Below are positions 9,183-47,837 of a stretch of DNA of 47,908 bases, piece after piece. This DNA is from Gemmatimonadaceae bacterium (GTDB taxonomy: Bacteria > Gemmatimonadota > Gemmatimonadetes > Gemmatimonadales > Gemmatimonadaceae): positions 1-47,908 of the forward strand of contig JALHNZ010000024.1 of NCBI GenBank assembly GCA_022843265.1. Direction: 5' to 3'. Within the stretch, counting starts at the first letter, position 1, and each line of letters opens with the position of its first letter. The position numbers and the translations under genes were made by a program. The notes beneath the pieces are model-generated. The model was not told the DNA's origin, made no database searches, and saw only the letters and a program-made list of their open reading frames with translations.

Positions 9183-10612
9183 TGTGGACCCTATGCCTTG
9201 CCCTCGTGGTGATGCTGACCCGCGCTGAGCTGGCGGCGCGGATTCTCGCGCTCCCGGCCAGCGAGCGCGCGGCGGCGTTCGCCCATCTGCAGCGCGTGGC
9301 CCCGGCGCGGGCGGTGGGCGCCGCGGGCACCGTGGTGCTCCGGTCGCTCCCGGTGGCGCGCACGATTCCCGCGTGGGCGGAGCCACTGCGTGGCGCGCGG
9401 CGCTACAAGGGGGCCAAAGGCGGACGCGGAAGCGGCAAGTCGCACTTCTTCGCGGAAGAGTTGGTCGAGCGCGCGGTCGCGAATCCCGATTACCGCGCGG
9501 TGTGCATCCGCGAGATTCAGCGCTCGCTCGAGTTCTCGGCGAAGGCGCTGATCGAGTCGAAAATCCGCACGCTCGGTGTCAGCTCGCAATTCGAGATCAC
9601 GAACCGCCTGATCCGCCGCCGCGGCGGGTCGGGGCTCATCATCTTTGAAGGCCTGCAGGACCACACGGCCGACACACTCAAGTCGCTCGAAGGCTTCGAC
9701 CTCGCGTGGGTCGAAGAGGCGCAGAGCCTGTCGGAGCGGTCGGTGGACATCCTACTGCCGACGATCCGCGCGCCGGGCTCCGAGGTCTGGTTCTCGTGGA
9801 ACCCGCAGCGCAAGACGGACCCGGTCGACGCGATGTTCGAAGCGGCCGAGGACCCGTCGATGGTGTGCGTGCACACCACGTATCTCGACAACCCGTTCTG
9901 CACGGACGAGCTACGCGCCGAGGCCGAGCGCCTCAAGGCGAGCGACCCGGACAAGTACAATCACGTGTGGCTCGGTGGCTACGACACGGGCGGCAAAGGG
10001 CGCGTGTACAGCCGGTTCATGGCGCGCCCGTTCCCCGAGGGCAACATCGATCCGAGTGTGCGCGACCTCGGCGGCACGATCTACATCGGCCAGGACTTCA
10101 ACGTGAACCCGATGGCCTCGGTGTTCGCGTGTAAGGTGGCGGACGAGTGCCACATCTTCGACGCGTGGGCCGTCGAGACGTCGAACACCACCGAAGTGTG
10201 TGAAGCGGTGAAGGCGCAGTTCCCCGGGCGCGATATCGTCTTCTGCCCCGACCCCGCCGGCAACCAGCGCCGCAGTAGCACGACGCGCGTCGGGCAAACG
10301 GACTTCACGATCATTCGCAGCTTCGGGTTCCGGCTGCATGCGCCGCCCAAGCACCCGGCGGTGGTGGACCGCGAGAACAACGCGAACCAGATGTACGAGC
10401 ACAACGGGCGCCGCCGCGTGCGCATCAGCCCCAAGGCGTCGGTGCTCATCGAGGCGCTCAACGGCCTCAAGTACAAGCCCGGCACCAACCTCCGCGACAA
10501 GTCGTCGTACCACGATCACGTGTGCGACGCCGCCGATTACCTCCTGTGGCAGGAGTTCAACGTGCTGCAACAGAACCGCGCGACCGTGACCACCTTCGCT
10601 GTGAGCGGCTGA
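9182..10612 (+). CDS. terminase large subunit
   Basis: Encodes 476 residues. It is the packaging motor: an ATPase that drives DNA into the prohead and a nuclease that cuts concatemers. Walker A GGRGSGKS is at about 80-87 and the Walker B-type LAWVEEA at about 174-180. The C-terminal RNase H-like nuclease domain shows GQDFN (Asp at about 305), CPDPAGNQ and YHDHVCDAADYL. It fits the PBSX/Terminase_3 type. ATG 9182 is chosen because it overlaps the previous stop (TGATG) behind GGCGGGGGC. ATG 9212 is an alternative that removes a hydrophobic ten-residue lead. Confidence 0.93.
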   Translation: MWTLCLALVVMLTRAELAARILALPASERAAAFAHLQRVAPARAVGAAGTVVLRSLPVARTIPAWAEPLRGARRYKGAKGGRGSGKSHFFAEELVERAVANPDYRAVCIREIQRSLEFSAKALIESKIRTLGVSSQFEITNRLIRRRGGSGLIIFEGLQDHTADTLKSLEGFDLAWVEEAQSLSERSVDILLPTIRAPGSEVWFSWNPQRKTDPVDAMFEAAEDPSMVCVHTTYLDNPFCTDELRAEAERLKASDPDKYNHVWLGGYDTGGKGRVYSRFMARPFPEGNIDPSVRDLGGTIYIGQDFNVNPMASVFACKVADECHIFDAWAVETSNTTEVCEAVKAQFPGRDIVFCPDPAGNQRRSSTTRVGQTDFTIIRSFGFRLHAPPKHPAVVDRENNANQMYEHNGRRRVRISPKASVLIEALNGLKYKPGTNLRDKSSYHDHVCDAADYLLWQEFNVLQQNRATVTTFAVSG

Positions 10613-12231
10613 TGGCTGACGCGACCCCTGTCCGCACCATTGCGGCCGACGCGCCGTCCGGCGCCCGCCCCAATTTCGAGCGCCCGGAGTACGTGGCCGG
10701 CAAGCCCGCGCGCCGCCTGTCGCGCGCGATGATGGAGGGCACGCGCGGCATCCGCGCGCTGGGCGAAGAGGCCATGCCCAAATGGCCCGGCGAAGACGCG
10801 GGCTTCTACAAGATCCGCGCGAGCATCGTGCGCGTGGCGCGTTACTACAAGCGCACCGTGCAGGCGATTGTCGGCATGGTGGTCGGCACGCCGCCCACCC
10901 TGGCGGAGGACACCGCGCCGATCCTCATCGAGGACGCCGAGGATATCGACGGCCAGGGCACGCACTTCGAAGTGTTTGCGCGTCGGACCACCTTGGAAGC
11001 GGCGGTGGGCGGATACTCGGCGATCCTCGTGGATGCGCCGCCGGTGCCATTGGGGATGGTGCTCACGCTCGCGGATGAGCAGGCGCTGGGGCTCCGGCCG
11101 TACTGGGCGTTGATCCGCGCGGAACAGATCATCAACTGGGTCGTGGAAGCGCCCGACTGGCTCGCACTCCTCACCGCGTGGCAACAGCGCGCGTTGACAA
11201 CGGACCAAGTGCGACGGCTCGCCCGGCACATGGTCACCCGGCAAGTCACGATTCACGAACCCGCCGATGTGCGCGACGGCGACTTCGGCGTGCGCACGGT
11301 GAACCGGTACCGGGTGCTGACCCTCGACACGAACGGCGTGCGGTTCGCGATTTGGGAGCAGCGGCAGGCGCAAGGCACAACGGGCGAGCACTACGCGCTG
11401 ATCGCCGAAGGGCCCATGCTCGGTGGCAAGCGCCAGCCGTTGCCGGCGATTCCGTTGTCCATCGCCTACTCGCAAGAGCCCCAGGCGCCGTTTGTGTGCG
11501 AGCCGCTCGCCCAGCCGGTCGCCGAGCTCAACCTCGACCACTACCAGCTTTCGGCCGAACGGCGCTACCTGCTGCGTATCACGCACGCGCCGACGCTCGG
11601 CCTGTTCGGTTTCGAGGACGACCTCGACGAGCAGGGCAACCCGAAGCCGATCGCCGTGGGCCCCAACGCGGTACTCAAGTCACGCAACCCGGACGCGGAT
11701 GCGAAGTGGATCTCCGCCGAGGCCGGGGCGCTGTCCGAGAGCCGCGAGGAACGCGACGACGTGGTGGAGCAGATCGCCGCGATTGGCGCGTCGTTCTTGG
11801 GCCGTGATGAGCAGCGCGGCGCAGAGACCGCGCGCGGCCGCGCGCTCGACATGGCGGCCGAACACCAGATGCACGCGCTGTTGGGGCGCGGCGTGCAGGA
11901 CGCGCTCGAGCAGGCCTGGGTGTTCCACGCGCACCATCGCAACGTGGACCCGCCGAGCATCGAGATGCACACCGTCCAGGTGGCCCCCGAAGTCAATCCG
12001 CAGGTCGCGCAGCTCTTGTGGCAGGCGGTCATCGAAGAGCGGCTCGACATGGACCAGTGGCTCGCCTACCTGCGCACGGGGGTCGTCCCGCAGACCTTCG
12101 AGCGGGACGCGGCCGAGATCCTCGCCGCCGCGGAAGCGGCGCGCGCTGCCGAGGCGGAACGCAAGCGCCAGCAGGGCGGCGCTGGGGCGGATGACGGCGG
12201 TATAGGTGACAATCTCGACCAGGCGGCGTAG
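10612..12231 (+). CDS. portal protein (DUF4055)
   Basis: Encodes 539 residues. It forms the ring at the packaging vertex through which DNA enters and leaves. The N-terminal sequence (PEYVAGKPARRLSRAMMEGT, then YKIRASIVRVARYYKRTVQA, DIDGQGTHFEVFA and GGYSAILVDAPP) matches DUF4055 proteins, which serve as portals in many siphophages. It follows the large terminase with a one-base overlap and precedes an F-like head protein. The C-terminal 40 residues are an alanine/arginine-rich helix and an acidic tail. Confidence 0.85.
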   Translation: MADATPVRTIAADAPSGARPNFERPEYVAGKPARRLSRAMMEGTRGIRALGEEAMPKWPGEDAGFYKIRASIVRVARYYKRTVQAIVGMVVGTPPTLAEDTAPILIEDAEDIDGQGTHFEVFARRTTLEAAVGGYSAILVDAPPVPLGMVLTLADEQALGLRPYWALIRAEQIINWVVEAPDWLALLTAWQQRALTTDQVRRLARHMVTRQVTIHEPADVRDGDFGVRTVNRYRVLTLDTNGVRFAIWEQRQAQGTTGEHYALIAEGPMLGGKRQPLPAIPLSIAYSQEPQAPFVCEPLAQPVAELNLDHYQLSAERRYLLRITHAPTLGLFGFEDDLDEQGNPKPIAVGPNAVLKSRNPDADAKWISAEAGALSESREERDDVVEQIAAIGASFLGRDEQRGAETARGRALDMAAEHQMHALLGRGVQDALEQAWVFHAHHRNVDPPSIEMHTVQVAPEVNPQVAQLLWQAVIEERLDMDQWLAYLRTGVVPQTFERDAAEILAAAEAARAAEAERKRQQGGAGADDGGIGDNLDQAA

Positions 12232-14045: not shown

Positions 14046-14068
14046 ACGGGGCCCGTCAGGGGCCCCGT
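14046..14068 (+). terminator. terminator-like hairpin after the packaging genes
   Basis: ACGGGGCCC (14046-14054) pairs perfectly with GGGCCCCGT (14060-14068) across a five-base loop, followed by the pyrimidine-rich CTCTCCTTCTGCCCTC. A nearly identical hairpin lies at 30576-30596. There is no clean U tract, so termination may be partial. Confidence 0.6.
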
Positions 14069-16235: not shown

Positions 16236-16262
16236 GCCAGCGGCGCACTCCGCGCCGCTGGC
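16236..16262 (+). terminator. terminator-like hairpin after the coat gene
   Basis: GCCAGCGGCGC (16236-16246) pairs perfectly with GCGCCGCTGGC (16252-16262) over a five-base loop. It lies 29 bases after the coat stop. There is no U tract, so it may act as a partial terminator or 3-prime stabiliser of the abundant coat mRNA. Confidence 0.5.
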
Positions 16263-18271: not shown

Positions 18272-19210
18272 ATGCCTGGCAACGCCACCGCTCGCGGCTA
18301 CCGCGTCGCGTACATCAAGGAAGTCACCCAGGGCACCACGCCGGCCACGGCGCCCACGCTGCTGCGCACGACGGGCGGCGGGATGAAGATCAGCGCGCAG
18401 ACCGTCGAAAGCGACGAGCTGCAGCTCACCGAAGTGCCAGACGTCATTCGCACGAATGTCGACGGCACCGGCACCATCAACTTCGAGTATTCGTACGGCG
18501 GCATTCACCCGCTGCTCGAAGGCCTGTTCGGCGGCACCTTCACCACCAACGTGCTCAAGGTCGGCACGACGCCCACGTTCTTCACGATCGAGGACCAGCT
18601 CACCGACATCAGCCGCTATCTCGCGGCCAAGGGCTGCGTCATCGAGGGCATTAGCATCGCGTTGGCGCAGGGCCAGAAGATCACGGGCACGGTCACGTAT
18701 CGCGCCCTGACGCCGCCGACGTCCATGGCCAGCGCTACGGTGTTCGGCGCGGCGCCGAACGCGGCGCCCACGAACCCGATCATGAGCCCGGTGGGCTCCG
18801 TGCGCCTCATTCAGGAAGGCGGCGCGTTGGATCTCGGCCCGGCCGGCATCGGCACGCTCGGCTTCACGATCGAGATGACGCGGGCGGGCATTGCGCAGCC
18901 GCAGTTGGGCAGCACGGCGCTGTCCGGCCTCGATCACGGCACGTTCGTGTGCAAGGGCACCGTGGCGCTCTACGTGCCCGCCGGCGCGTCGGCGATCATG
19001 GACAAGTACCTGGCGGACACGCAGACGTCGCTGGCGCTTACGCTCGGCGGCGCGTCGTCGCTGCGCGACGCGTACCTGTTCAGCAAGGTGCGCTTCACGG
19101 ACGGCGGACTCGGCGACATGCAGAAGAACGCCGCCGCGAATCTCAATCTGTCGTGGCAGGCGACGTATGACGCCACGAACAGCACCGTGCAGGTCACGCG
19201 CACGCCCTGA
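18272..19210 (+). CDS. major tail (tube) protein
   Basis: Encodes 312 residues. RGYRVAYIKEVTQGTTPATA at the start, repeated ESDEL...EYSYGGIHPLLEGLFGG, and strongly beta-rich sequence match the tail tube family that stacks as hexameric rings around the tape measure. It lies between the tail terminator and the tail chaperones, the usual position. ATG 18272 follows AACCCCGAGACTCTC. Downstream 84 bases hold a GCGCCGG/CCGGCGC inverted repeat (19227-19252). Confidence 0.8.
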   Translation: MPGNATARGYRVAYIKEVTQGTTPATAPTLLRTTGGGMKISAQTVESDELQLTEVPDVIRTNVDGTGTINFEYSYGGIHPLLEGLFGGTFTTNVLKVGTTPTFFTIEDQLTDISRYLAAKGCVIEGISIALAQGQKITGTVTYRALTPPTSMASATVFGAAPNAAPTNPIMSPVGSVRLIQEGGALDLGPAGIGTLGFTIEMTRAGIAQPQLGSTALSGLDHGTFVCKGTVALYVPAGASAIMDKYLADTQTSLALTLGGASSLRDAYLFSKVRFTDGGLGDMQKNAAANLNLSWQATYDATNSTVQVTRTP

Positions 19211-30565: not shown

Positions 30566-30575
30566 ATCTTCCGAG

Positions 30576-30596
30576 CGGGGCCCGTGAGGGGCCCCG
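30576..30596 (+). terminator. terminator-like hairpin after the tail spike gene
   Basis: CGGGGCCC (30576-30583) pairs with GGGCCCCG (30589-30596) across a five-base loop, followed by TTGTCGTG. The stem and four of the five loop bases are the same as in the hairpin at 14046-14068. It ends the main tail operon ahead of the lysis genes. Confidence 0.6.
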
Positions 30597-30627
30597 TTGT
30601 CGTGTGGGGCATATAGGATCGCGCGAG

Positions 30628-37944: not shown

Positions 37945-37972
37945 TTGCGGACATATGTCCGCAAGGTATATT
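37945..37972 (+). promoter_or_regulatory. promoter overlapped by a perfect 20-bp palindromic operator
   Basis: TTGCGGACATATGTCCGCAA at 37945-37964 is a perfect palindrome. Its first six bases can serve as a -35 box, with TATATT at 37967-37972 as -10 after 16 bases. A dimeric repressor bound here would cover the promoter of the HTH-like gene downstream. The 5-prime leader holds two hairpins (37979-37996 and 38008-38020), the second ending right at the GAGGTG ribosome-binding site. Confidence 0.7.
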
Positions 37973-38030
37973 GCAACCCGGAGCAACGACGCTCCGCTTC
38001 TCCTACTGGGCGGCTCGCCCGAGGTGTGGT

Positions 38031-38369
38031 GTGACGATGCGATCATTCATTCTGCGTGACCTTGCAGGCAAAGGCCTCGGCGTCATTGAAGCGGTCGATG
38101 AGGCGAGCGCCTTGTCGGCGGGACAGGCAAACGACTGGCGCGTCGCGGCGGCGCATCCTGACAACCCCGCGCGCCTCAACCTGTCGGCCATGCTCGCGGC
38201 CTCTGGGTTGAGCAATCGCGAGTTTGCCCGGCGGGTCCTCGGGCGGGATGTGCGAAGCCTGGCACGGTACCTGAGCGGCGACATCATGCCCCCGGAGCTG
38301 GCCGACCAAGTATTGCGGATGTCCGTCTCTGTCTCCAAGGAAACCATTCACATCACGGTGCGCCGATGA
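38031..38369 (+). CDS. HTH-like regulator downstream of the palindrome
   Basis: Encodes 112 residues from GTG 38031, or 110 from ATG 38037. GAGGTG at 38021-38026 suits the GTG better. The N-terminal 40 residues (MRSFILRDLAGKGLGVIEAV) form a small mixed domain. Residues about 45-95 (LNLSAMLAASGLSNREFARR followed by VLGRDVRSLARYLSGDIMPP) resemble an XRE-type helix-turn-helix, with RSLARYLSG in the place of the recognition helix. It probably binds the palindrome ahead of its own gene. It overlaps the next gene by four bases. Confidence 0.6.
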   Translation: MTMRSFILRDLAGKGLGVIEAVDEASALSAGQANDWRVAAAHPDNPARLNLSAMLAASGLSNREFARRVLGRDVRSLARYLSGDIMPPELADQVLRMSVSVSKETIHITVRR

Positions 38370-38638
38370 CTGACGAAGAGCTTAACCGACTCGAAGCGCT
38401 CGCGAACGCGGCGACGCCGGGGCCGTGGCGCTACGACGATAGCGACGCCGACCCCTGCGTGATCACGCAAACCGGGCAGTATATCGCGCAGACCAGCTAC
38501 GATCAGCAGTCGGTGTCCCGCGGTGATCGCGATTACCACGCCGACGCGCACTTCATTGTCGCCAGCCGAGACGCTGTGCCGACGCTCATCGCGGAGGTTC
38601 GGCGGCTGCGAGGCGATCCGCATGCCACGCAAGCCTAA
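38366..38638 (+). CDS. Ead/Ea22-like small phage protein
   Basis: Encodes 90 residues. LEALANAATPGPWRYDDSDA at the start and DAHFIVASRDAVPTLIAEVR with RLR at the end are the two conserved ends of small phage proteins related to Ead/Ea22 (ATPGPW...D..fi..ard.vp.Li...rrL). Their function is not known. ATG 38366 overlaps the previous stop. Confidence 0.7.
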   Translation: MTDEELNRLEALANAATPGPWRYDDSDADPCVITQTGQYIAQTSYDQQSVSRGDRDYHADAHFIVASRDAVPTLIAEVRRLRGDPHATQA

Positions 38639-38855
38639 GCCCCGGATCCCCGACGACACCCCGCTCGGGCACCTGATCGACGACGGCACGCTCGCGCCGC
38701 GTACCGTGACGGCACTGGTGCGCTCCCTGTGGACCGTGGGCGAGCTCCGCCGCTGGTATGCGCAGCACGAGGCCGGGACAGCGGCCGCGCTCCAGTACGT
38801 GGGGCCGGCGGCGCTGGCGGACATCCGGCAGGGGATGCGGCGCATTGGCCGCTGA
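38622..38855 (+). CDS. small protein resembling the RNA polymerase alpha C-terminal domain
   Basis: Encodes 77 residues. IDDGTLAPRTVTALVRSLWT, VGELRRWYAQHEAGTAAALQ and YVGPAALADIRQGMRRIG follow the alpha-CTD pattern: L..R..NaL....i.tvgeL........l....G.ks..eI...L, with two helix-hairpin-helix-like turns. It overlaps the previous gene by 17 bases and lies next to an HTH regulator. It could touch promoter DNA or act as a decoy for host RNA polymerase partners. Only motif-level evidence. Confidence 0.45.
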   Translation: MPRKPKPRIPDDTPLGHLIDDGTLAPRTVTALVRSLWTVGELRRWYAQHEAGTAAALQYVGPAALADIRQGMRRIGR

Positions 38856-38859
38856 CGCG

Positions 38860-39054
38860 CCGGTTAAACTTTCGACAGCCACCGGGTGGGTGTCGGATCT
38901 TTAACCGGGCCGATCGTTGTCCGGTTTTTCCGTGCATGCAGCGGCGGCAGAGAAACCGGACACCCGACGCGGCAACCGGTTGTGGCGTCGTGTGATGCAC
39001 ACGTGCCTGTAAAGTTTTGCCCCGCTCTCACGTGGTTAGCGAAAACTTTACAGG
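38860..39054. repeat. cluster of inverted repeats in the regulatory gap
   Basis: In the 242-base gap 38856-39097 I find: CCGGTTAAA/TTTAACCGG (38860-38868, 38900-38908) enclosing an 11-bp stem with one mismatch (38873-38895); TGTCCGGTTT/AAACCGGACA (38918-38927, 38953-38962), extendable to 13 bp; a 26-bp imperfect palindrome around CAACCGGTTG (38965-38990); CGTGTG-atg-CACACG (38989-39003); and a perfect 13-bp pair CCTGTAAAGTTTT/AAAACTTTACAGG (39006-39018, 39042-39054). AAACTTT occurs three times counting both strands. An 11-bp tandem repeat (CCCCGCTGACg/c) follows. No promoter consensus stands out. Confidence 0.7.
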
Positions 39055-39097
39055 GCCCCGCTGACGCCCCGCTGACCCGTGGCAATACCGTGGCGGC

Positions 39098-39223
39098 ATG
39101 GACGAACTCGAACTCGAGGCGATCATCGCCGAAGCGGAAACCTCCACCAACCTCGCCTGGCTGCGGCGGACGCTGGTGGAGGTGTGCCTAGAACTGCTCA
39201 GGGTGGGGAGGAAGCGGGGTTAG
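39098..39223 (+). CDS. 41-residue helical peptide
   Basis: ATG 39098 opens MDELELEAIIAEAETSTNLA, then WLRRTLVEVCLELLRVGRKR and G. It is an acidic amphipathic helix then a hydrophobic/basic one. The TAG at 39221-39223 overlaps the stop of the convergent leftward lipoprotein gene. It lies right after the inverted-repeat cluster, so it may be controlled by it. The ribosome-binding site is weak (GTGGCGGC). Confidence 0.45.
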   Translation: MDELELEAIIAEAETSTNLAWLRRTLVEVCLELLRVGRKRG

Positions 39224-39558
39224 GGGGCGCACGCGAAGGCTTCGCCCTGCGCGCTCGAGCCCCAGAAGCCGTTCTTCATTTCGGCGAGCAACACCACGGT
39301 CGCGCCCTTTTGCCTACCCTCGTTCTTCAACTTGCGCTCCACTGCAGTCCGCGCCGCCCCCTTGTAAAGCAGCCCACCGCGCCCGTCGCTGGCGCGAAGC
39401 AAGCCCTTCGACGTGCAGCCTCTCACCGCTTCTTGAGAAAACGTCAGGACAACCGCATCGGCGCCGGGTACGAGGTGTGGGGTGCGGTAGCAGCCCATGA
39501 CCAAAATTGACGCGAGGACCAGCATTGGGCGCGTGACCAGAACTTCGCGTTTTGCCAC
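39220..39558 (-). CDS. lipoprotein of the leftward lysogeny-type operon
   Basis: Encodes 112 residues from GTG 39558 with weak AGAG upstream; ATG 39525 is the alternative. The N-terminus MAKREVLVTRPMLVLASILV followed by MGC is a lipoprotein signal peptide with a lipobox (VMGC). The mature part (GADAVVLTFSQEAVRGCTSK, KGATVVLLAEMKNGFWGSSA, EAFAC) resembles the short DUF4156/RcsF-like lipoprotein pattern with two cysteines. It starts 14 bases after the stop of the secreted-protein gene. Lipoproteins from prophage operons often change the host surface or block superinfection; that role is inference. Confidence 0.6.
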   Translation of the reverse strand: MAKREVLVTRPMLVLASILVMGCYRTPHLVPGADAVVLTFSQEAVRGCTSKGLLRASDGRGGLLYKGAARTAVERKLKNEGRQKGATVVLLAEMKNGFWGSSAQGEAFACAP

Positions 39559-39572
39559 GTCTCTTGAATGGC

Positions 39573-40280
39573 TCACGGCACCGCCGGCTTCATGCGGTTG
39601 GCGAACTCCCGGAGCGCGAACACCTGCTTGATGTTCAGCGAGAACTCCACGTTGCACAGCTTGCCTTCGACCCTCGCCGCACCGGCCATCTTGAAGAATT
39701 CGGACGTCGGCATCTCGGTCCCGATCTTCTCAAGCACGCCATACGTCTCGACGCTGCCGTCGTGGGTCGCAGGCTTTGTCGCAACTCGCTGTCCGTCGGC
39801 CAAGAATGTCAGCGAGTGGCACCGCAGGTACCGCCAATCACGCGAGGACGACCATACCCGGAGGAACACGGATTCCGGAAACTCTCGGTGCTCACCAGGT
39901 ACTGCAAAGAGCACTGTGATGTCGATCTCATCACCGCCTGCTGAATTGCGGACTTTGATTCCGCCGAGAGACCCGCCTGTCAGGTTGTTGAAGCGGTCGT
40001 ACTTCACCTCGATCTCGCCTTCGTACGGCTCACTAAGTCGCGCCGGGAGCAGAGACGCCAAGGTGTTGGCGCCAGGCTGCTTCGCGGCCCCCTGCCCCTT
40101 GCGGAGAGCGGCGATCACGCGCTCAAGCGAATCGACCCGAGCCCGGAGGCGCGCGTTCTCAGTGCGGGTGGCGGTCGCGCCACCGGTGATCTGGCTTTCC
40201 ACGGCTGCAGGCGAGACGGCCAACGTGCCCGCCAGAACAATGCGACACAGTGTCGCCATGGTGGTTTCCACAGTCTTCAA
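39573..40280 (-). CDS. secreted coiled-coil protein of the leftward operon
   Basis: Encodes 235 residues from TTG 40280, which has GGGAGGGG just upstream; ATG 40259 is the alternative. A signal peptide (ATLCRIVLAGTLAVSPAAVE) is followed by a short coiled coil (ENARLRARVDSLERVIAALR) and a beta-rich domain (YEGEIEVKYDRFNNLTGGSL, DEIDITVLFAVPGEHREFPE). The product is periplasmic or surface. It is expressed with the repressor and a lipoprotein, so it may act in the lysogen, for example in superinfection exclusion. No family is recognised. Confidence 0.6.
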   Translation of the reverse strand: MKTVETTMATLCRIVLAGTLAVSPAAVESQITGGATATRTENARLRARVDSLERVIAALRKGQGAAKQPGANTLASLLPARLSEPYEGEIEVKYDRFNNLTGGSLGGIKVRNSAGGDEIDITVLFAVPGEHREFPESVFLRVWSSSRDWRYLRCHSLTFLADGQRVATKPATHDGSVETYGVLEKIGTEMPTSEFFKMAGAARVEGKLCNVEFSLNIKQVFALREFANRMKPAVP

Positions 40281-40309
40281 CACCCCTCCCGCGTTGCGTG
40301 CTTGCACGA

Positions 40310-40338
40310 TTGCGACGCTCCCAAAAATCGGCGTATCT
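40310..40338 (+). promoter_or_regulatory. candidate rightward promoter
   Basis: TTGCGA at 40310-40315, a 17-base spacer and GTATCT at 40333-40338 form a fair sigma-70 promoter. It points to the plus-strand gene at 40364, against the leftward operon. A leaderless or very short 5-prime end is implied, since the ATG is 26 bases after the -10 box. Confidence 0.4.
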
Positions 40339-40363
40339 TCGGGCGACCCTGAATCCACTGCCA

Positions 40364-40675
40364 ATGCCTCACCGTACCGCCTCCTGCTACTTCGTTGTGC
40401 TGGCCCCGGTGCGCTTCCCTGTCGAAGCGGCGCCCGGGGAGCATCTGTCCGTCTGGCGTGGTGCCCCCAATCTGCTCGTGTTCGACGCGTCTGGCGAGAA
40501 CGTGGTGCGGGCAACTGACTTCCCCGAGGGGAAGCTCTGGACCGTGCTGGCCGACCTGTTGGATGCCCAGGCTATTTCGCCGCTGTCTCCGGCTGAGTTG
40601 TATCGCCTGGGGCATACCCTTCGCGGAAGCGGTGGCCCACTTCGTCCATACCTTCGCGCTTTGCGATTGGCGTAG
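40364..40675 (+). CDS. rightward gene opposite the repressor 3-prime end
   Basis: Encodes 103 residues: MPHRTASCYFVVLAPVRFPV, then HLSVWRGAPNLLVFDASGEN and PEGKLWTVLADLLDAQAISP with AELYRLG. The first 80 residues read like a real mixed alpha/beta protein with sensible codon use. The last 104 bases overlap the repressor gene on the other strand. It has its own promoter-like sequence. No family is recognised. Transcription would run against the repressor transcript. Confidence 0.5.
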   Translation: MPHRTASCYFVVLAPVRFPVEAAPGEHLSVWRGAPNLLVFDASGENVVRATDFPEGKLWTVLADLLDAQAISPLSPAELYRLGHTLRGSGGPLRPYLRALRLA

Positions 40676-41156
40676 CGAGCGCCTGCGCCATCTCGGCGCG
40701 AATGCGACCGTGGTGCGCCGCCGCGTCCTCGAGGATCGACCCCGCCTCTTCCAGTCGGCCGAGCCAATAGAGGAGCGATTGCCGCGGATCGGTGACCGTG
40801 CCCGCCGCGTTGCCGGCCATCTCGAGTGTGACGTGGGACTCACCTTTCGTGGGTGGCGGCTTCGGCACGTCGAGTCCGCCGGTGGCGGTGACGCCGATGC
40901 GCGCGTGCCCGCCAACAGTCGGCGGTGCTCCCAGAGAGTCGAGAAGCGCCTCATTCAGCTCGGCCGGCGCGTTCTTTCCTGTCTCCCAGTTCGAAACCGT
41001 TGGGCGCTCTACCCCCAACCGCTCCGCGAGCTCGCCTTGCGTCAGGCCCAGCCTCAGGCGCAGCGCTTTGATGGCATCAGGATGCCATCTCTTGTGCGAT
41101 ATAGTCTGATCCGGTAATGTGCCGTCGGACTCTGACACCGTTTCCTCGCGGCTCAT
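40572..41156 (-). CDS. XRE-family phage repressor
   Basis: Encodes 194 residues from ATG 41156. GTG 41138 is a serious alternative with GAGG five bases upstream. WHPDAIKALRLRLGLTQGEL, then AERLGVERPTVSNWETGKNA at about residues 24-63 is a clear XRE helix-turn-helix. The remaining 120 residues are polar and helical, without the serine protease (LexA-like) core of cI. It is the likely maintenance repressor: it is the first gene of the leftward operon and shares a back-to-back promoter region with the rightward early genes. It may be inactivated differently from self-cleaving repressors. Confidence 0.8.
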   Translation of the reverse strand: MSREETVSESDGTLPDQTISHKRWHPDAIKALRLRLGLTQGELAERLGVERPTVSNWETGKNAPAELNEALLDSLGAPPTVGGHARIGVTATGGLDVPKPPPTKGESHVTLEMAGNAAGTVTDPRQSLLYWLGRLEEAGSILEDAAAHHGRIRAEMAQALATPIAKREGMDEVGHRFREGYAPGDTTQPETAAK

Positions 41157-41502
41157 GCGCTCTGGGCTCGCCAAACAACGGGATGAAGGGCGGCGGCACA
41201 CGATACCAAATCCGGGCAACGCAGCCGTGCGACCCGGTCCGGCAGGCCAGCCACCGTCCGTAGTACCGGCGACGACAGCCGGGCCGCAGGTCTCGGGACA
41301 CCGCGTTGACGGCGCGGGAGCACAGACCGCCGGGAAGCGTCGGCCAGAGCGTTCGACCATGACACCGCCTGGCGGCCAACTGCCGGGTAAACGGTCGTCA
41401 TGCCCATATGAGAAGGTGCAGTGGAAGCCCTCGGGCGCCAGCCGCCGTCAACGGCTGGCTTGATCGGACGACGGTCCGGTACCGGGGGCTTTCGCACGCC
41501 TA
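41157..41502. other. untranslated leader of the leftward repressor operon
   Basis: I see no convincing gene here on either strand. If the leftward promoter at 41511-41540 is used, this is a leader of about 350 bases. It contains stable inverted repeats: GCCAGCCG/CGGCTGGC (41437-41444, 41452-41459), CGGAC/GTCCG (41465-41469, 41474-41478) and the palindrome CCGGTACCGG (41476-41485). These lie close to the promoter and could be operators or RNA structure. Confidence 0.45.
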
Positions 41503-41532
41503 TTGACAGGATCATACGGGGCGGTGTAGTAT
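41503..41532 (+). promoter_or_regulatory. rightward early promoter (PR-like)
   Basis: TTGACA at 41503-41508 is a perfect -35 box; TAGTAT at 41527-41532 is a good -10 after 18 bases. It faces the gene at 41604 and the recombination operon. GAAC...GTTC dyads follow (around 41546-41555 and 41566-41574) and may be repressor sites. Confidence 0.75.
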
Positions 41533-41540
41533 CGTGTAAG
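41511..41540 (-). promoter_or_regulatory. leftward repressor promoter (PRM-like), overlapping PR
   Basis: On the minus strand CTTACA (41540-41535) and TATGAT (41516-41511) are separated by 18 bases: four of six and five of six matches to consensus. It is nearly superimposed on the rightward promoter, so polymerase or repressor bound for one direction blocks the other. Confidence 0.6.
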
Positions 41541-41603
41541 CAGTGAACGTGTTCGATGTACGCCGGAACCGTTCGTAACCTTTCACGTGGAACGCTACTC
41601 GCT

Positions 41604-43387: not shown

Positions 43388-44203
43388 ATGAGCAACGAAT
43401 CGACGAGCACCGCGATGGCTACCACGGAAGCGCCCACGCGCCCTGCGCTGAGCGCGGAAGCCCAGGCGCGTGTCGAAGAGCGCCGCCTGCAGAACGCGAT
43501 GGCGACGGCGATCCGCGGCGCCACCTGGTCCAAGGACCTGAGCGCGGCCGGCGCCCGAGCGTTGGCGGAGTATTGCCGCCAGAACCGGCTCGACCCGATC
43601 CGCCATGTGGAAGTGTTGGGCGGACGCATCTACCTCAACGCGGAACTCTATCGCGAGCGCGCCATGCCGCTGATTCAGGCGGGCGTGGTGAAGTGCGACG
43701 AACCGGATTTCATCAACGCCGATGCGCGGCTCGATGAACTCGCGAAGCAGGGCGACACGTGGGCGAAGGAAGAATCCTCGCGCCGCCTGCGTCTCCGCAT
43801 CCAGCACAACGTGCCGGAAAAGGCGGTGGCCGCGTGTCTCTTCCGCATCACGCTCGTGGAATCCGGCATGACCGTGGTCGGCGTCAACTGGTGCGGCGGT
43901 GGCGTGCGTCAGCGCGACCCCGTCGGCGACAGCGAGCCGACCAAGACCGCGCAGACGCGCGCGGAGCGCCGCGCCTGGACGCGTGTGGCGGAAGTGCTGC
44001 CGAGCTACGGGCGACAGTTCGAAGCGATGCAGGCGTCGGCGGAATCTGTGAGCGAAACGCTGGTCGGCGAAATCGAGGATATGGAAGCCGACGCCCGCGC
44101 ACTGCAGGCGACGCCGGCCATTGCGACCCCGGCCAACGGCTACGGCGTCAGCGCCGTGGAGGATGTGGTCGAGCTCGACCTGTCACATGAGGATGCCGCC
44201 TGA
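43388..44203 (+). CDS. RecT/Bet-like single-strand annealing protein candidate
   Basis: Encodes 271 residues. WSKDLSAAGARALAEYCRQN, RLDPIRHVEVLGGRIYLNAE and LYRERAMPLI, with KTAQTRAERRAWTRVAEVLP later, resemble the core of phage annealing proteins, where LDP...v.g..yl.......i and a conserved arginine-rich helix recur. Such proteins pair complementary single strands for recombination. It precedes SbcD/SbcC, which would supply resected ends. The C-terminal 60 residues are acidic and may bind a partner. The exact superfamily (RecT or Erf) cannot be fixed by eye. Confidence 0.55.
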   Translation: MSNESTSTAMATTEAPTRPALSAEAQARVEERRLQNAMATAIRGATWSKDLSAAGARALAEYCRQNRLDPIRHVEVLGGRIYLNAELYRERAMPLIQAGVVKCDEPDFINADARLDELAKQGDTWAKEESSRRLRLRIQHNVPEKAVAACLFRITLVESGMTVVGVNWCGGGVRQRDPVGDSEPTKTAQTRAERRAWTRVAEVLPSYGRQFEAMQASAESVSETLVGEIEDMEADARALQATPAIATPANGYGVSAVEDVVELDLSHEDAA

Positions 44204-45369
44204 TGCGTGTTCTTCACACGGCAGATTGGCACGCGGGTTTTCGGCAGTTCGACGCGCTCACCGACGACGGTCTCAATGTCCGCGAGCATGACGTCGCACA
44301 GACGCTCACGCGCGCCGTGACGGCCATGATCGCCGAGGCGCCGGACCTGCTGGTGATTGGCGGCGACATCTTCCACCAGTCGCACCCGTCAAACCCGGCG
44401 ATCGTCCACACGTTCAACGAGCTGGCGCGACTGCGGAAGGCGCTCCCATCAACTGAGATTCTGTTGGTTGCGGGAAATCACGACGCGCCGCGCACCGCCG
44501 ACGCCGGGAGCATCCTGCAGCTCTTCCGTTCGCTGCGCATCCACGTGGTGGAGCGCGCGGCCGAGACCATCGAACTGCCAGCGCTCGACTGCGAAGTGCT
44601 CGCGGTGCCCGATGTGGTCGGCATCGAGCGGCCGACGCTGCGCCCGTCCACCACCCGCCGCCATCGCGTGTTGCTGCTGCACGGCGAAATTGCGGGCATG
44701 CTGCCCGTGCGGACGTCGCATGACATCGATGTGGCGGCGCTGCATGCCGACGCGTGGGACGTGGTGTGCCTCGGCCACTGGCACGTGGCCCGCGAAGTCG
44801 CGCCGCGCGCCTGGTACAGCGGCTCCATCGACTACACGAGCACGAACCCGTGGGGCGAACTCGCGGAGCAGGCCGAGCGCGGCGTGAACGGCAAGGGGTT
44901 TCTCGTGCATGAGATCCCGGCCCGCACGACGCGCTTTGTGCCGCTGCCCGCGTCACGCGCGTTCCTCGACTTGGGGCCGATCCACTGCGGCGACCTCACG
45001 GCGGCCGAGATCGATGCGGCCATTGCGCGCGAGGTGGACACCACGTTCGGCAAACTCGATGGCGCGGTGGCGCGCGTGGTGCTCGTGGATTGCGAGCGGC
45101 ATCGGCTGCGCGAACTCGATCAGGAGGCGCTCCGCAGTTACCGCGCCCGCGCGCTCAGCTTCCAACTCGTGGCGCGTCCGCCCGAAGCCGTCGCGTCCCT
45201 CGTCACCGTGGAGGCGGCGAAGCACACGAGCCTTGAGGCGCTGCTGCACCGCGCCATCGCGGAACGCCCGCTGCCGCCGGACGTCGACCGTGACGCGCTG
45301 ACGCGCCTCGGCGCCACGTTCCTTGCCACGACCCGTCAATCAGCGGCGCCCGTCGCCGTGGAGGCCTGA
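44203..45369 (+). CDS. sbcD: SbcD / Mre11-type nuclease subunit
   Basis: Encodes 388 residues. It is the metal-dependent phosphodiesterase of the SbcCD complex, which cuts hairpins and resects double-strand ends. Motifs: HTADWHAG (Asp8, His10), IGGDIFH (about 52-58), AGNHD (90-94), LLHGE (His160) and GHWH (191-194), the full set for a two-metal site. ATG 44203 overlaps the previous stop. It is followed two bases later by the SbcC gene. Phage SbcCD/gp46-gp47 pairs generate recombination substrates and oppose host nucleases. Confidence 0.92.
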   Translation: MRVLHTADWHAGFRQFDALTDDGLNVREHDVAQTLTRAVTAMIAEAPDLLVIGGDIFHQSHPSNPAIVHTFNELARLRKALPSTEILLVAGNHDAPRTADAGSILQLFRSLRIHVVERAAETIELPALDCEVLAVPDVVGIERPTLRPSTTRRHRVLLLHGEIAGMLPVRTSHDIDVAALHADAWDVVCLGHWHVAREVAPRAWYSGSIDYTSTNPWGELAEQAERGVNGKGFLVHEIPARTTRFVPLPASRAFLDLGPIHCGDLTAAEIDAAIAREVDTTFGKLDGAVARVVLVDCERHRLRELDQEALRSYRARALSFQLVARPPEAVASLVTVEAAKHTSLEALLHRAIAERPLPPDVDRDALTRLGATFLATTRQSAAPVAVEA

Positions 45370-45371
45370 CC

Positions 45372-47837
45372 GTGCAACTGCACACGCTCCGACTCAAGAA
45401 TTTCCGCCAGTACGGCGATGCCACGCTGCGCTTCGATCGCGGGCTCACCGGCATCGTGGGCACGAACGGCGCCGGCAAGTCGACCATCCTCGAAGCGATC
45501 GCGTTTGCGCTCTACGGCGTCGGCGCCGCCCGGGGCAGCAAGGACAGCATCAAGAGCCGCCGCGCCGCGCCGCGCGCCAGTGTACTCGTAGAGCTCGAGT
45601 GCACCGTGGGCACGCAGCGCATGCGCATCGAGCGCGGGCTCTCGCAGGCCGCCGCGTTTCTCGGCACCCTCGACACACCCGTGGCGACCAGCCTGGGCGG
45701 CGTCACCGAGTGGGTGGAGCGCACGCTCGGCATGACGCGCAGCGAGTTCTTCACCACGTACTTCACGGGCCAGAAGGAGCTCGCCGTCATGGGCACACTC
45801 GGTCCGGCAGATCGCGCGCGGTTCCTCTCGCGTGTGCTCGGCTACGACCGGCTCGAGATGGCGCAGACGCTGGTGCGCGACGCGCGGAAGGGGCTGGTAT
45901 CGGAACAGCACGCGCTGCGCGCCACGATGCCCGACCCGGCCACGCTGGAACAGGCGCAGGCCGACGCCCGTGACCGGCTCGCGGCGGCGCAGCAGGCGCT
46001 GGTGAGCACGGAAGCCGCCGAGGACCGCACCGCCGAGATCGAGGCGCGCCTTCGCCCGGTGTGGGAGCGGGCGCAGGCCACGTGGGCGGCGCAGCAGACG
46101 CGGGTCACGACGCACGGCACGCTGACGCAGCGCGCGGAATCCGTGGCGCGCGACGTGCTGCGACTGGAACAGGAGCAGGCGGCGATCGCGGAGGCGGTGG
46201 CTGCACTCCCGGGCATCGCGCGGGATCTCGCCACCCTGCCGGCGCTGCGCGAGGAAGGCGCGCGCCTCGACCGTGAAGCGGCGGCGGATACGGAGCGGCA
46301 GCGGTTGCTGGGGGTGCAGGCGCATCTGCAGCAGCAGGCCAACGGACTCCCGCATCCCGACGAAGCGGCCGAGGAAGTGGAGCGCGCCAAGGACCTAGTG
46401 GATCGCCAGCAGCAGAAGGTGCTGGAGTGGCGCGCGGACGTAGAGAAGGCGGAGGCCAAGCTCGCCGAAGAAAGGGCGGCCTGGCGTGAGCGGCTCGCGC
46501 AGGCCCGCGCCGAGCTGCAGCAGGCGCGGGCGGCGGTGCGGCCGTTGCTCGACAAGAAGGCCAAGCTGGAAACGCAGGGGCCCGACGCGCCGTGTGGCAC
46601 GTGCGGGGTCGCGCTGGGTGATCGGTACCCCACGGTGCTCGCGGCGCTGGAACAGGAGATTGCGGCCATCACGGCAGAAGGCGTTCGCCTCGCCGAGGCC
46701 GCGCAAGGGCTGGAAGCTGAGCCGACGACGGTCGCGGAGTGGCGCGAGGAGTATGAGGGCACGGCCAACGGACTGGCGCGCGAACAGGAGCATCTCGCCG
46801 AACTGCAGCGGATACTGCAGGGCGAGATCAAGCAGCAGGCTGAATCGGTGCGCATCGTGACCGAAGGTGAGCGGGTGACCGCGCAACTCGCCGCCCTCCC
46901 CACCACGTACGACGTGGCGCGGCATGAGGTGGTGCGCGCCGAGCTCGCGCGGCTGGCCCCGATGGAGGCGCGCCGGGCCGTGCTAGCCGACAAGGCGGCG
47001 CAGGCCGAGCGCGTGGCCACGGCGCTGACGCAGGCGCAGGAACAGGCCCGCACCATCGCCAGCGAGCGCGCGACAATTGAGCAGCAGATCCTCGAAGCTG
47101 GGCTCACGGCGGAGCAATACGACGCCATGCGCCGCGAGTACACCGAGGCGGAACGCGCGTGGCGCGCGGCCGTCGACGCGAACCGCATCGCGCGCGATAG
47201 CGTCGGCCGCGCCGAGGATGCCGTGCGCCAGGCGGAGCAGCGCATCGCGGACACGCAAGCGGCCCGCGCGCGGCTCGCAACGCTGACGCGCGACGTGGTG
47301 CTGCATGAGGAACTCGACCGCACCATGGGCGACCTCCGCGCCGAACTCAATCACGCGCTGCGCCCCGAGCTGGCGGACCTCGCGAGCGCCTTCCTCGAGA
47401 CGCTCACCGATGGCCGCTACACGCAGGCGGAGTTTGGTGAGGACTACCAGCTCACGGTGCTCGAAGACGGCGTGCCCAAGCCGGTGATTTCGGGCGGCGA
47501 GGAGGATCTCTGCAATCTCGTGCTGCGCCTCGCCATCTCGCAGATGATCGCCGAGCGCTCGGGCACGCCGTTCTCGCTGCTGATTCTCGATGAGGTGTTC
47601 GCGGCGCTCGATGAGCAGCGGCGCACCAACGTGCTCACGCTGTTGCGGCGGCTGTCCGATCGCTTCGCGCAAGTCATCGTCATCACGCACAACGATCACG
47701 TGCGCGATGCGCTGGACCACGTGATCCGCGTGACGCTGGATGTCGCGGCGGGTGAGAGCCGGGTGAGCTATGGGGAGGGGCCTGCCCTGCCCCAGGCGGA
47801 CGCGGTGGCGGTGGTCGACCTGGCGGTGGCGGCATGA
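45372..47837 (+). CDS. sbcC: SbcC / Rad50-type ATPase subunit
   Basis: Encodes 821 residues, shorter than the about 1,050 of E. coli SbcC, mainly through shorter coiled-coil arms. Walker A GTNGAGKS (30-37), zinc hook CGTC (Cys408, Cys411) at the arm tip, ABC signature SGGE (707-710), Walker B LLILDE (about 736-741) with the D-loop FAALDE, and a His-loop VIVITHND near residue 774. It clamps DNA ends for SbcD. GTG 45372 starts MQLHTLRLKNFRQYGDATL, the usual N-terminus. It overlaps the junction gene by four bases. Confidence 0.92.
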   Translation: MQLHTLRLKNFRQYGDATLRFDRGLTGIVGTNGAGKSTILEAIAFALYGVGAARGSKDSIKSRRAAPRASVLVELECTVGTQRMRIERGLSQAAAFLGTLDTPVATSLGGVTEWVERTLGMTRSEFFTTYFTGQKELAVMGTLGPADRARFLSRVLGYDRLEMAQTLVRDARKGLVSEQHALRATMPDPATLEQAQADARDRLAAAQQALVSTEAAEDRTAEIEARLRPVWERAQATWAAQQTRVTTHGTLTQRAESVARDVLRLEQEQAAIAEAVAALPGIARDLATLPALREEGARLDREAAADTERQRLLGVQAHLQQQANGLPHPDEAAEEVERAKDLVDRQQQKVLEWRADVEKAEAKLAEERAAWRERLAQARAELQQARAAVRPLLDKKAKLETQGPDAPCGTCGVALGDRYPTVLAALEQEIAAITAEGVRLAEAAQGLEAEPTTVAEWREEYEGTANGLAREQEHLAELQRILQGEIKQQAESVRIVTEGERVTAQLAALPTTYDVARHEVVRAELARLAPMEARRAVLADKAAQAERVATALTQAQEQARTIASERATIEQQILEAGLTAEQYDAMRREYTEAERAWRAAVDANRIARDSVGRAEDAVRQAEQRIADTQAARARLATLTRDVVLHEELDRTMGDLRAELNHALRPELADLASAFLETLTDGRYTQAEFGEDYQLTVLEDGVPKPVISGGEEDLCNLVLRLAISQMIAERSGTPFSLLILDEVFAALDEQRRTNVLTLLRRLSDRFAQVIVITHNDHVRDALDHVIRVTLDVAAGESRVSYGEGPALPQADAVAVVDLAVAA

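Follow-up and report, generated by a model that had tools for sequence, protein, structure and literature searches.

Four adjacent hairpins at the end of a small phage operon, a candidate terminator without a U-tract

The DNA analysed here (the window) is contig C24 of a 4.6 Mb draft genome, 47,908 bases long, and it reads as a siphovirus. A gap of exactly 242 bases (38856–39097) separates the stop codon at 38855 from the ATG at 39098. An inverted-repeat search finds four adjacent hairpins in the gap and one inner stem nested within the first of them, which is the count of five inverted repeats that an earlier note on this DNA had reported, and the cluster is thus real. The features, with the hairpins numbered from left to right, are as follows.

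Terminase (9179), portal (10522), scaffold, capsid (14969), tape measure (20181) and endolysin (30965): siphovirus genes
37945–37964, no strand: perfect 20-bp palindrome TTGCGGACATATGTCCGCAA, overlapping the promoter-like sequence of the operon
38008–38024, + strand: 5' UTR hairpin GGGCGGCTCGCCC, followed by GAGG, a likely ribosome-binding site
38037–38369, + strand: HTH regulator-like gene, first in the operon, with homologues in G060, G375 and L151
38366–38638, + strand: 90-aa gene with no function assigned, PHROG 722 (E = 6.5e-12)
38622–38855, + strand: 77-aa ORF, the last before the cluster, with coding-like third-position GC of the frame
38860–38908, + strand: hairpin 1, 49 nt, arms CCGGTTAAACTTT...CTTTAACCGG of 24 nt, 83% complementary
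38918–38962, + strand: hairpin 2, TGTCCGGTTTTTC / GAGAAACCGGACA, 13-nt arms that are 92% complementary, with a G-T as the exception
38961–38994, + strand: hairpin 3, imperfect palindrome with centre AACCGGTT, overlapping 19-nt arms, 84%
39006–39054, + strand: hairpin 4, CCTGTAAAGTTTT / AAAACTTTACAGG, 13-nt arms, 100% (a perfect 13-bp stem), loop of 23
39098–39223, + strand: 41-aa ORF, the first 33 codons nearly identical in G060
39220–39657, − strand: convergent gene, possible lipoprotein, 66% identity over 95 residues to a G060 protein
40572–41360, − strand: HTH repressor-like gene
44203–47837: SbcD/SbcC-like genes (palindrome-specific nuclease family)

A promoter-like sequence of the sigma-70 kind, TTGCGG-16-TATATT, is located ahead of the HTH gene and overlaps the palindrome TTGCGGACATATGTCCGCAA, which has no other copy in the window and is probably an operator. 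The nearest virus record is IMGVR_UViG_3300001920_000017 (G060), with about 90% DNA identity over long tail and lysis stretches, and its locus L010 carries the same operon unit with the palindrome core GGACATATGTCC kept at 9919–9930. Further genomes of the host family (G309 and G375) also contain related phages, with capsids that are 66–69% identical. The sequence CCNACTGGGNNNCTNNCCCGAGG is present in all four phages that were aligned (the window, G060, G375 and L151), and the 5' UTR hairpin CCTACTGGGCGGCTCGCCCGAGG at 38002–38024 is kept in the same four and carries the likely ribosome-binding site on the 3' foot. A longer ORF at 37971–38369 has a weak match to PHROG 6499 (E = 0.002), and the 77-aa ORF shows no family match. 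G375 and L151, which are more distant relatives, have the same HTH operon unit with strong sigma-70 promoter matches and another operator sequence, and in both phages the homologous HTH gene is followed by a canonical terminator consisting of a hairpin and T5, GCCCCACCGTCACCGGTGGGGCTTTTT in L151 and CCTCGCCGGTGAGGCGTTTTT in G375.

Hairpin 1 begins 5 nt past the stop codon (38855) and folds on the + strand with -30.6 kcal/mol (z -6.3); its nested inner stem lies near 38873–38895 and has a CGG loop. The fold of hairpin 2 reaches -25.3 on the + strand and -21.0 on the − strand, and that of hairpin 3, the weakest of the four (z -2.2), -19.0 and -13.5 respectively. The loop of hairpin 4 includes GCTCTCACGTGG. 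The stems have 13–20 pairs in the + strand folds, and the hairpins are separated by 9 nt (1 and 2) and 11 nt (3 and 4), with hairpins 2 and 3 abutting or overlapping. The half-sites said to be common to the repeats are indeed concentrated here: AAA[CG]TTT has three copies in the whole 47.9 kb, all within the gap, and AACCGG/CCGGTT occurs six times between 38860 and 38981 (about 120 bases) against 18 times in the rest of the window, 24 in total. Folded as + strand RNA, 38850–39065 gives a z of -5.3, with 0 of 200 shuffles equally good; the same region gives -4.0 as − strand RNA and -5.6 with DNA folding parameters. The + strand tile at 38851 ranks third for structure among the 478 strand-specific 200-nt tiles of the window. 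Counted more strictly, as Watson-Crick inverted repeats only, the gap is matched by 2 of its 500 shuffles, and some GC-rich stretches elsewhere in the window have an equal score, indicating that the DNA repeats of the gap are not extraordinary by themselves.

The pairing points to RNA. Each of the six hairpins compared (four in the window and two in L010) is more stable when folded as + strand RNA than as − strand RNA, and the eight arm positions that could be read as G/T or A/C are all G-T on the + strand, that is G-U in RNA, with no A-C; one of them is common to both homologues of hairpin 1, leaving about seven that are independent. This fits selection on the + strand RNA and is unlike a DNA-binding site. 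The L010 region folds with a z of -3.8 on the + strand versus -1.6 on the − strand, but in L151 it is the − strand that has the better fold, indicating that the + strand bias is not general to this group of phages. The Rfam covariance models give no family for the cluster at the gathering threshold, and the best matches below it are implausible eukaryotic RNAs.

The earlier note had let its proposal depend on finding the stems in relatives and the repeat set in other phages, and the outcome is divided: hairpins 1 and 4 are conserved in one close relative, L010, while hairpins 2 and 3 have no homologue there or elsewhere among the phages searched, and neither hairpin 1 nor hairpin 4 has a further copy beyond chance in the host genome or the other phages searched. 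The homologue of hairpin 1, at 10648–10696 of L010, is 88% identical, and that of hairpin 4, at 10590–10641, has the loop GCTCTCACGAGG where the window has GCTCTCACGTGG, and an outer stem of 18 pairs as RNA, two G-U included. The order of the two is swapped in L010 with the strand unchanged, and the surrounding sequence is otherwise unalignable; the hairpin 4 homologue overlaps the stop codon there and the hairpin 1 homologue follows 6 nt later. All statements on conservation of the hairpins are comparisons of two sequences, the window and one close relative. Some pairs of hairpin 4 are kept through changes on both sides, where pair counts taken from the MAFFT alignment miss the full stem since it displaces the left arm by one base, and the loop is more conserved than parts of the stem. 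In hairpin 1 there is no pair with a two-sided change, and two pairs are lost in L010. Within the host family, a hairpin 1 model run on 178 further genomes finds no credible match, the loop pattern of hairpin 4 is absent from the species genomes collection, the host genome holds no other close DNA match at E 1e-3, and no DNA similarity of the window to annotated phages was found.

Several candidates were discarded on the way. A 22-bit match of the hairpin 1 model in G248 is attributed to chance, as it sits in an apparent acyltransferase-type coding sequence. Host REP-like repeats were rejected since the host genome has no copies, and guide-RNA arrays or ToxIN-type repeats since the hairpin units are not direct repeats. 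CACGTG in the loop of hairpin 4 was considered as a copy of the leader TTTCACGTGRAAC near 41580, but with 40 occurrences in the window it is too common, and a flanking CCGCTGACGC repeat regarded as a target duplication can also be put down to a local repeat.

We consider it fairly probable that the cluster is a hairpin-cluster terminator, or an mRNA 3' end without a U-tract, that insulates two convergent operons, the stop of transcription being what we infer. The cluster would lie at the 3' end of a self-contained small operon of the phage (the promoter with its palindrome, the HTH gene and two small genes), and several adjacent hairpins would replace the single hairpin with U-tract, serving as a compound terminator and 3'-end structure. 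A polymerase arriving from the left should transcribe hairpin 1 at 5–53 nt past the stop codon, followed by three more at spacings below 15 nt, and the nascent hairpins might pause and release the polymerase and shield the end of the mRNA. Because the repeats are inverted, the same DNA yields hairpins also in RNA from the right, and the block could thereby insulate the leftward genes on the lipoprotein and repressor side and the rightward operon from each other. Termination may accordingly work in one or both directions.

This reading draws on the hairpins located directly at the stop codon in both the window and L010, on the + strand RNA bias and the hairpin 4 pairs kept through two-sided changes, on the operon whose promoter and 5' UTR hairpin are conserved in relatives, on the canonical terminators after the homologous HTH gene in L151 and G375, on the convergent gene that the window and G375 have on the right-hand side, and on published U-less hairpin clusters (PMC8355165) and U-less mycobacterial terminators (PMC12288462). 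Against it stand the lack of a U-tract and of any match in a terminator scan of 38300–39700 for a canonical intrinsic terminator; the tail scores of the cluster hairpins are -1.5 to -3.5 compared with -4.8 for the G375 terminator. The statement that the cluster does not look like a single canonical terminator is thereby borne out, and the cluster is unusual. The opposite strand preference in L151, the hairpin 1 stem with its two broken pairs and no two-sided changes, and the stems of 13–20 pairs, which exceed in length the short hairpins of published clusters, also speak against this reading, and a plain terminator would need neither the strictly kept loop GCTCTCACGNGG of hairpin 4 nor the near-identical sequence of hairpin 1. 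In G060 the convergence is not immediate: the 41-aa gene is found again at 12908 of L010, and some 2.1 kb of other + strand genes, one of which resembles RadC by inspection, separate it from the hairpins.

Cluster-hairpin terminators (Gupta and Pal 2021) consist of hairpins less than 15 nt apart and within 80 nt of the stop codon, do not need a U-trail, are favoured in GC-rich genomes, and have units that are mostly short with stems of 2–10 bp, longer stems being a minority (PMC8355165). The present cluster resembles them in its spacing (9, 0 and 11 nt in the window, 6 nt in L010), in its distance from the stop codon (5 nt for hairpin 1, and an overlap for the hairpin 4 homologue in L010), in the missing U-trail and in the GC-rich genome. 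It differs in its stems of 13–20 pairs, and in that two hairpins are kept in sequence, loop included, with their order swapped in a relative. U-less, I-shaped terminators have been described in mycobacteria as single hairpins, with conflicting evidence, and the works cited in the review disagree on the need for a U-tract (PMC12288462); a hairpin near the stop codon of a GC-rich genome and no poly-U tail are found here as well, but the cluster has several hairpins. With the canonical terminators of the HTH operon in related phages (5241–5267 of L151 and 4714–4732 of L167) it shares the place relative to the homologous HTH gene, whereas these combine a GC stem with five consecutive T, and no such terminator is present in the window or G060. 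This operon ends in a canonical terminator in two of the relatives and in a hairpin cluster in two other phages, a compact natural setting in which to test if transcription in GC-rich phages is stopped by U-less hairpin clusters.

Termination alone accounts for neither the conserved loop GCUCUCACGNGG of hairpin 4 nor the swapped order, which keeps a structured RNA in view. Hairpins 4 and 1 could constitute a cis-acting RNA module (an antiterminator, an RNase III processing site or a protein-binding site) or a 3'-end small RNA with the loop as the working part, an explanation that we regard as possible but not likely. The two hairpins are conserved islands in unalignable sequence, the loop is better kept than parts of the stem, the pairing favours the + strand, and the strand is the same in both phages in spite of the swapped order; on the other hand they match no Rfam family, are found in two related phages only, and the window has no downstream operon that would need antitermination. 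That the pair, rearranged between relatives, is a conserved RNA module of these phages whose loop is sequence-specific, and that it acts on transcription or RNA processing beyond simple termination, appears doubtful; should the loop have a partner, this would be a new phage RNA element.

The order of hairpins 1 and 4 could also reflect recombination, the hairpins being mobile cassettes that mark points of exchange between phage modules. Phages of the T4 type reportedly have mobile regulatory cassettes with promoter and stem-loop, and the hairpins are likewise located at module boundaries with the gene content altered around them in phages that are otherwise about 90% identical over long stretches. 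The candidate units have no promoter inside, are seen in two phages only, have no other copies in either genome or (for hairpin 1) in the host family, and show no target duplication beyond a 14-nt match of 93% that is also part of a local repeat, which makes this explanation very unlikely. The multi-operator region suggested earlier, with AACCGG and AAACTTT half-sites to which the HTH protein, the repressor or another phage regulator would bind, is unlikely: six AACCGG/CCGGTT and three AAA[CG]TTT within about 190 bases, and the direct repeat CTGACGC-N-GCTGAC just downstream, kept in three phages, would suit it, but the palindrome at the neighbouring promoter is a different, single-copy one, almost no 7–8-mers are common to the gap and the HTH promoter or early switch region, the arms are anywhere between 0 and 23 nt apart, and the G-T mismatches weaken the DNA symmetry and keep the RNA pairs. 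AAA[CG]TTT does not recur at another regulated promoter, nor anywhere else in the window. A second replication origin, a partition site or an attachment-like site, also named in the earlier note, found no support and seems hardly credible. Hairpin clusters occur in some replication origins and the z of the region is low with DNA parameters, but there is no turn of the GC skew, no direct-repeat iterons, and no adjacent initiator in the family libraries, and the + strand bias of the stems points to RNA. As to an integron attC or a phage attP site, no integrase is present among the ORFs scanned with PHROGs, on a contig that is possibly incomplete, and the 5' foot of hairpin 1 carries GTTAAAC, which we take to be the opposite order to attC. 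These sequence tests lower the probability of an operator cluster, and likewise of an origin, a partition site or an attachment site.

On the downstream side, the direct repeat CTGACGC-N-GCTGAC at 39060–39078, upstream of the 41-aa ORF, is kept in G060 (47193) and G066 (15501) and is a possible promoter or operator element. The homology of the 41-aa ORF to G060 ends just past an inverted repeat at 39140–39183. The leftward gene at 39220–39657 faces the cluster from the right in the window and in G375; its G060 homologue begins with a lipobox-like signal peptide, and it is possibly a lipoprotein expressed during lysogeny. No relatives were found for the leftward ORF 39573–40514. At 41503–41540 and 41579–41592 there are overlapping divergent promoter-like sites, in the interval separating the repressor-like gene from the rightward genes, and a leader TTTCACGTGRAAC that is common to G375 (26049). 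The SbcD/SbcC-like genes share the phage with the palindrome cluster. Hairpins of the GGGGCCC type and GCCAGCGGCGC are found between late genes at 14046–14068, 16236–16262 and 30574–30598; they are kept in G060 and are likely ordinary terminators or gene spacers. The minor tail protein of 18272–19210 is 83–87% identical to G066/G064 and 44% to G060, whereas most other genes are closest to G060, indicating mosaic exchange.
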